Part shown: positions 48,781 to 49,169 of the stretch, piece after piece
Layout of the letters: every line of letters begins with the position of its first letter
Position numbering within the stretch: position 1 is the first letter of the stretch
NCBI RefSeq assembly: GCF_000242595.2
Contig: NC_017098.1
Location: 3,024,501-3,088,500 of the forward strand
Source: Spirochaeta africana DSM 8902
GTDB lineage: Bacteria > Spirochaetota > Spirochaetia > DSM-27196 > DSM-8902
Direction: 5' to 3'
Length of the DNA: 64,000 nucleotides
Notes under the pieces: generated by a model
Told to the model about the DNA's origin: nothing
The model's database searches: none
The model's input: the letters and a program-made list of their open reading frames with translations, nothing else
Translations under genes and position numbers: made by a program

Positions 48781-48864
48781 GCCCAGGTGGCGGAATTGGT
48801 AGACGCGCTAGATTCAGGTTCTAGTGGGGGCAACCCCGTGGAGGTTCAAGTCCTCTTCTGGGCA
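48781..48864 (+). tRNA. tRNA-Leu, anticodon CAG
   Basis: 84 nt. It folds as a class II tRNA: acceptor GCCCAGG pairs with the 3' TCTGGGC (one G-U), anticodon stem CTAGA/TCTAG with loop TTCAGGT (anticodon CAG), a long variable arm closed by GGGG/CCCC, and a T-arm GGAGG-TTCAAGT-CCTCT. The discriminator is A, and CCA is not encoded. A terminator follows after 2 nt. Confidence 0.97.
48848..48864 (+). repeat. 17-bp direct repeat, copy 1 (tRNA-Leu 3' end)
   Basis: AAGTCCTCTTCTGGGCA, from the T-loop to the discriminator base of tRNA-Leu, is repeated exactly at 49031-49047, 183 bp downstream. Flanking bases differ at both ends. Confidence 0.95.
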
Positions 48865-48865
48865 T

Positions 48866-48903
48866 AAAAAGTCCGGTGACCTTTAGGTTGCCGGACTTTT
48901 TTT
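48866..48903 (+). terminator. Intrinsic terminator directly after tRNA-Leu
   Basis: Stem AAAAAGTCCGG...CCGGACTTTTT with inner GACC/GGTT pairing and loop TTTA, followed by seven T. Confidence 0.93.
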
Positions 48904-48918
48904 ATGCACAACAGGAAA

Positions 48919-49037
48919 AGGACTTGAAACGGAGCGACGGGCGCGAGCCGGCGAGCGCAAAACCACAGGATGTGGTTTTAGGAGCGCAGGCGGCCTGGAG
49001 GGAAGCAGCACGATGCTGCTGACCGGAAGGAAGTCCT
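48919..49037 (+). ncRNA. Candidate structured RNA module in the tRNA-Leu tail
   Basis: AGGACTT (48919-48925) pairs with AAGTCCT (49031-49037), the start of the repeated tRNA end, to close a ~119-nt domain. Inside are a perfect 9-bp hairpin (AAAACCACA-GGA-TGTGGTTTT, 48959-48979), a perfect 7-bp hairpin (AGCAGCA-CGA-TGCTGCT, 49004-49020) and a GC-rich 48930-48958 stretch. There is no coding potential in 48904-49050. Transcription would need read-through of the first terminator. The function is unknown. Confidence 0.45.
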
Positions 49038-49047
49038 CTTCTGGGCA
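49031..49047 (+). repeat. 17-bp direct repeat, copy 2 (duplicate of tRNA-Leu 3' end)
   Basis: An exact copy of the last 17 nt of the tRNA-Leu gene, with no other tRNA-like sequence before it. It is followed 3 nt later by a second terminator. Confidence 0.95.
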
Positions 49048-49050
49048 CAC

Positions 49051-49090
49051 AAAGCTTTCAGTCCTTCTTCAGGGCTGAAAGCTTTTTTTT
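49051..49090 (+). terminator. Second intrinsic terminator of the tRNA-Leu tail
   Basis: An 11-bp stem AAAGCTTTCAG / CTGAAAGCTTT with a TCC...GGG-containing loop, followed by a run of nine T. Confidence 0.93.
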
Positions 49091-49169
49091 TGCTCACAGA
49101 CATGATCATTGCCGAAACACGAGCAGACAGCACGCCTACAGAGTACGTGCACTTTCCGACCGCTTCATC

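Follow-up and report, generated by a model that had tools for sequence, protein, structure and literature searches.

A conserved family of folded repeats behind tRNA genes of Spirochaetia, with ends matched to the tRNA that each repeat follows

To our knowledge, the question of why repeats in the tail of a tRNA gene carry the end of that same tRNA has been open since the tyrT repeats of E. coli were described. The tRNA-Leu(CAG) gene of Spirochaeta africana DSM 8902 (host genome in one contig of 3,285,855 bp) raises it again. It lies in the 64,000-nt stretch of DNA analysed here, referred to as the window, and its 3' end recurs a short distance downstream. An earlier note on this stretch had pointed out the duplication, a closing stem between the copies and a terminator behind each, and had proposed a likeness to the E. 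coli tyrT locus, a remnant of site-specific integration at a tRNA gene or a repeat family attached to tRNA genes. Here, we describe the module as one unit of a conserved family, as established by homology and covariation. The antisense relation to the tRNA, the distribution over many genomes and the tailoring to other tRNAs all go beyond what that note contained.

The host gene, detected by ARAGORN and the Rfam tRNA model, occupies 48781-48864 on the + strand, as do the features that follow it, with T54 at 48845, C56 at 48847 and the last encoded base, N73, at 48864. Its last 17 nt (nt 57-73, AAGTCCTCTTCTGGGCA, 48848-48864) recur exactly at 49031-49047 with a spacing of 183, and an exact 17-nt match at so short a distance is far beyond chance. 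The first copy is followed by the intrinsic terminator of tRNA-Leu(CAG) (about 48866-48903, inverted repeat AAAAAGTCCGG.../...CCGGACTTTTTTT) and the second by another intrinsic terminator (about 49051-49091, inverted repeat plus T-run), which is probably the displaced original terminator of the tRNA gene. The stem initially spotted, AGGACTT (48919-48925) with AAGTCCT (49031-49037), is present and belongs to a longer antisense that reads GAAAAGGACTTGAA (48915-48928) and is complementary at 13 of 14 positions to the T-arm of the gene itself (48845-48858). This antisense forms the left arm, and the sense copy at 49031-49047 the right arm, of a closing stem (P1) around a conserved structured body (48929-49030), which is supported by covariance model match and covariation and contains P2, consisting of two hairpins (48941-48958 and 48959-48979), and P3, a single hairpin (about 49004-49020). 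The 183-bp interval contains no gene of any kind, and hence no integrase gene between the direct repeats. The region folds better than every one of 200 shuffles as RNA (z -4.5), and as single-stranded DNA it likewise exceeds all shuffles (z -5.1).

A BLAST search of the region against 60 relatives recovered the body (query 140-256) also at loci other than tRNA-Leu(CAG), and the bodies followed tRNA-Leu, Pro, Met, Gly, Arg and Val. Most of the complete units among them were flanked by matches to their own tRNA, with an antisense of its T-arm on the near side and its 3' end on the far side. A covariance model built from 29 units, named R1, matches 48919-49037 with 110 bits and finds three units in the genome of the window, behind Leu(CAG), Pro(GGG) and Gly(CCC). 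At the order level, R1 units occur in 30 of 46 genomes. Across the class Spirochaetia they occur in at least 113 of 297 genomes and at least 56 of 112 genera, counts that are lower bounds given that few candidates were scored per genome. Presence is patchy and the copy number ranges from 0 to 27 per genome, the highest number being found in a complete genome (G001) where most units are arranged in tandem at periods of 180-230 bp. Within tandem arrays, adjacent units can differ in subtype. A same-strand tRNA gene lies upstream of 158 of the 184 distinct units, while others follow tmRNA or displaced tRNA halves. Among the 119 first units, the hosts represent 25 isoacceptors and the closing stem begins 27-122 nt past the tRNA, mostly at 48-60 nt. 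Two units (L387:7038-7159 and L388:2799-2922) follow tmRNA, which also possesses a T-arm; their body is longer and their ends match the T-arm of the tmRNA. Several units without an intact tRNA have a tRNA 3' half upstream, as expected if a later island had entered the anticodon region and displaced the units. The proposal of a repeat family attached to tRNA genes is thereby borne out, and its occurrence across genomes, together with covariation, rules out chance duplication. The spirochaete family was previously uncatalogued, and no description of it was found in openly licensed papers. Pattern matches on non-spirochaete genome contigs (Methylobacterium, Sphingopyxis and others) failed R1. A phage or plasmid origin was likewise rejected, as the window segment gave no useful matches and the sole pattern match on a viral contig (L191) failed R1. 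In a raw tally of the first units, many of the hosts read four-codon boxes with C34 or G34 in the anticodon (Leu CAG/GAG, Pro GGG/CGG, Gly CCC) and are possibly dispensable isoacceptors.

Each unit is composed of three parts: a T-arm antisense (about nt 54-65), a three-branched fold of ~100 nt and a sense copy of nt 56-73. The antisense and the sense copy both derive from the unit's own tRNA and pair with each other, closing the fold. This match to the cognate tRNA, which the earlier note had suggested looking for at the 3' end, holds family-wide: the antisense matches on average 12.7 of 16 positions of the cognate tRNA versus 9.6 for other tRNAs, and the sense copy 15.5 of 17 versus 8.5. The antisense matches its own tRNA at 0.92-0.99 over nt 54-62, after which the match falls to 0.68 at nt 65, 0.52 at nt 66 and 0.20-0.30 at nt 69-73 in the acceptor strand. 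This decay through the acceptor stem disfavours mimicry of a tRNA minihelix. The sense copy, in contrast, has a sharp onset between nt 55 and 56: in 98 well-preserved units, identity is 0.02 at nt 54, 0.05 at nt 55 and 0.90 at nt 56, remains at 0.95-1.0 up to nt 73 and then drops to about 0.58, against a background of 0.29. Bodies at the Arg and Trp loci, or at the Leu and Met loci, of single genomes are 82-88% identical, and their ends are specific for their own tRNA.

The proposed stems are supported by strong covariation. When the R1 structure is applied to the 29 units, 87.7% of the cells are paired; shuffles give 68.8%, and sliding the structure gives no more than 41%. Double changes are seen in 187 cells versus 58. 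A further 81 distinct units, drawn largely from other families within the class, have 92.4% of the cells paired and 723 with double changes versus 207, in an alignment that is itself fitted to R1. In alignments A2 and A3, G.T accounts for 2.5% of the standard pairs in the units and for 9.1% in the T-stems of the same tRNAs, and the non-canonical pairs are mostly G.A and hardly ever T.C. Taken together, the few G.T pairs and the excess of G.A over T.C point to the tRNA-sense (+) strand as the folded strand, the rarity of G.T being an indirect sign that other causes could account for. In the same alignments, intermediates between compensatory states are rare despite the many double changes. A CsrA/RsmZ-like sponge was rejected, with only weak sub-threshold PrrB_RsmZ matches and with GGA absent from many hairpin loops.

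How the units relate to enterobacterial rtT (RF00391) depends on whether anatomy or covariance model is considered. Behind E. coli tyrV, three units follow the tRNA, with GGGGAAGGAT about 58 nt past the tRNA, then a fold and then ATCCTTCCCCCACCACCA, the two ends pairing with each other. In both groups, units thus lie behind a tRNA, begin with an antisense of the T-stem and inner acceptor, continue into a folded body and finish with the 3' end of their own tRNA in sense orientation; both also form tandem arrays, with units of about 178 bp in the E. coli tyrT operon. They differ in the onset of the sense copy, which is about nt 58 for E. coli tyrV and nt 56 for the spirochaete units, and in that the latter mostly follow a terminator. 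RF00391 gave no match in the window at the gathering score and none in nine unit loci at E up to 1, whereas the E. coli tyrTV units score 133-138 bits, and the covariance model therefore does not place the family in Rfam rtT. Conversely, R1 scores rtT with only 7-10 bits, though largely at the right places. The likeness to tyrT drawn in the earlier note accordingly holds for the anatomy, as tandem units behind a tRNA that carry the 3' end of that tRNA, and does not extend to the model. Judged by their sequences, the spirochaete units and rtT share the same design, with bodies that are not recognisable as homologous. In E. coli and Salmonella, RF00391 units also occur behind tRNA-Pro, and in E. 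coli and Providencia behind tRNA-Lys; weaker rtT-type units stand between tRNA-Arg genes of Klebsiella aerogenes. In each case they have copies from their own tRNA ends. In these Enterobacterales records (L407-L411), the tailoring of rtT-type units extends beyond tRNA-Tyr to tRNA-Pro, tRNA-Lys and tRNA-Arg.

Several observations bear on whether the units move. On the tree of the bodies, bacterial family requires 69 changes against 110 when shuffled, and the amino acid of the tRNA 58 changes against 87 when shuffled, or 74 when shuffled within genomes; both signals indicate that units stay within lineages, yet have switched hosts many times. A terminator-like hairpin precedes the antisense in 98 of the 119 first units (82%) and follows the sense copy in 63 of 119, compared with 12 of 109 control windows, which places most bodies beyond the terminator of the tRNA. 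Some units (L333 and L339) start ~8 nt past the tRNA without a terminator and would be co-transcribed. At the tRNA-Met locus of the window's genome, a decayed array persists as a relic (L480, G000:C1:1126134-1126222, minus strand), in which antisense and copy can still form the closing stem, while the body has lost its match and the terminator is present a second time behind it. Among the Treponema-like genomes compared, no informative pair of an empty and a filled site was found.

We consider it about an even bet (probability roughly 0.5) that 48848-49047 contains a single unit of a small mobile element, tailored to its target, whose attachment sites are T-arm genes (tRNA, tmRNA). The position of the terminators, the host changes, the patchiness, the relics and the few G.T pairs favour a mobile element folding as a single strand over a transcribed RNA; they favour, and do not prove, mobility, insertion rather than another route, and folding as DNA. 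Insertion of such a body, about 110 bp long, would take place between nt 55 and 56 in the T-loop, leaving the gene with an intact 3' end alongside and a sense copy of nt 56-73 beyond the body. With its left end, antisense to host nt 54-65, the body would pair with the displaced copy and close a three-branched fold on the tRNA-sense strand, and this closed fold may be the form recognised by a putative trans-acting or host recombinase. Tandem arrays could then arise from repeated insertion or unequal crossing-over. More tentatively, and at somewhat less than even odds, the units may represent a new class of gene-less mobile elements with both ends tailored to the target, which would recognise the T-arm common to all tRNA and tmRNA genes, gain host-specific antisense and sense copies and close a single-strand fold for a host or trans-acting recombinase, with enterobacterial rtT as a relative by design.

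Alternatively, the units could specify an rtT-type host RNA, read through with the tRNA and processed to a ~120 nt RNA closed by the antisense/copy stem, with a role in regulation or tRNA maturation and with an antisense that may switch its pairing partner from the tRNA to the copy and back. The anatomy is that of E. coli rtT, where a small RNA (RttR) is annotated, the tRNA-sense strand covaries strongly, the Klebsiella aerogenes units sit between tRNA genes of one operon and some spirochaete units have no preceding terminator. We regard an RNA of this kind as the main rival of the mobile element but as less likely, since 82% of the first units stand behind a terminator-like hairpin, presence is patchy, host tRNAs vary, relics and arrays occur, G.U pairs are very few for an RNA and the closing stem by itself needs no host-tRNA sequence.

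A T-loop breakpoint with duplication up to the tRNA end is produced by tyrosine integrases, and the units display these features: as in tyrosine-recombinase integrative elements, direct repeats that start in the T-loop and run to the 3' end of the tRNA flank the unit and the gene is intact on one side. They might be attL/attR-like scars of conventional tRNA-targeting integrative elements that have lost their genes, and integrase genes or fragments do lie downstream of some units (L193, L195). The spirochaete unit differs from such elements in being only about 180 bp long and gene-free, with no integrase between the repeats in the window or in the other units, and ordinary genes lie downstream of most units. 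Moreover, the body is conserved, covarying and constant in length, which already disfavours scars, and a host-tailored antisense is not part of att sites. Of the integration remnant suggested in the earlier note, the T-loop-like breakpoint stands, whereas the antisense and the conserved fold are left unexplained, and we judge scars improbable. Still far less probable is local tandem duplication only, by slippage or unequal crossing-over without spread. Array neighbours such as L104 and L105 can agree almost completely, even in the terminator, and 13 of the 98 well-preserved units show identity runs of at least 20 nt past N73, again with the terminator; yet unrelated tRNA loci and genera share homologous bodies that show strong compensatory change. 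This homology across tRNAs refutes duplication as the sole cause, while duplication may still account for the growth of arrays.

Comparison with other known systems brings out likenesses of part of the design. Like integron attC sites and gene cassettes, the units are tandem and their paired ends form a folded single-strand site, but the spirochaete fold is branched and without cassettes, and the attC end boxes RYYYAAC/GTTRRRY are not found in the expected order in the P1 arms (alignments A1-A3). In three genomes (loci L243, L244 and L245 in G022, G002 and G001, respectively), units at tRNA-Leu or tRNA-Val are followed within 2 kb by an IntI gene in convergent orientation. Full-length IntI is encoded in 11 of 46 genomes, several of which have no units, and the majority of the order's unit-bearing genomes have no full-length IntI. 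An IntI cassette system was rejected, as the distribution of IntI does not follow that of the units and the end boxes misfit. REP/RAYT elements are likewise short, repeated, intergenic, folding and non-coding, whereas the spirochaete units occupy a fixed site in T-arm genes; Y1 transposase is missing from several unit-bearing genomes, including unit-rich ones, and this system was rejected accordingly (PF01797 is absent from G000 and from G001 with its 27 units). A retroelement (SINE-like or group II-derived) was rejected because reverse transcriptase (PF00078) is missing from unit-rich genomes, being absent from G264 (17 units), G019, G025, G013 and G067. As each is missing from some unit-bearing genomes, neither reverse transcriptase, Y1 transposase nor full-length IntI is needed for units.

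The recurrence of an rtT-like design across a bacterial class, where its breakpoint is precise, its fold covaries and its hosts comprise tmRNA and 25 isoacceptors, makes the question of why repeats carry their own tRNA's end directly testable. It suggests that either a kind of mobile element that adapts to its target or a class of RNAs in tRNA tails has been overlooked. The family also accounts for many unannotated repeats behind tRNA genes and is a candidate for a new Rfam family.

Other folded sequences were observed in similar positions. In the window's genome, a second, different hairpin structure stands behind the tRNA-Pro(GGG) unit (L111/L193, G000:C1 from about 847,500); its two ends look like the tRNA acceptor strand in antisense and in sense orientation, and a 140-aa reading frame that resembles an N-terminal integrase fragment follows. 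On a contig from a viral collection (L475, IMGVR_UViG_3300031555_010910), tRNA-Arg(CCG) precedes an antisense, a segment that folds and contains GGAGCG...AAAAAACAG/CTGTTTTTAGC, and a repeat of the tRNA's own 3' end; the design is similar to that of the spirochaete units, at an R1 score of only 5.9 bits. Finally, another small hairpin repeat, about CGTACCGCAG...GAGGAACG, occurs in or beside tRNA copies and bodies (L108, L383, L390, L391, L046 and L048) and is possibly another mobile module.
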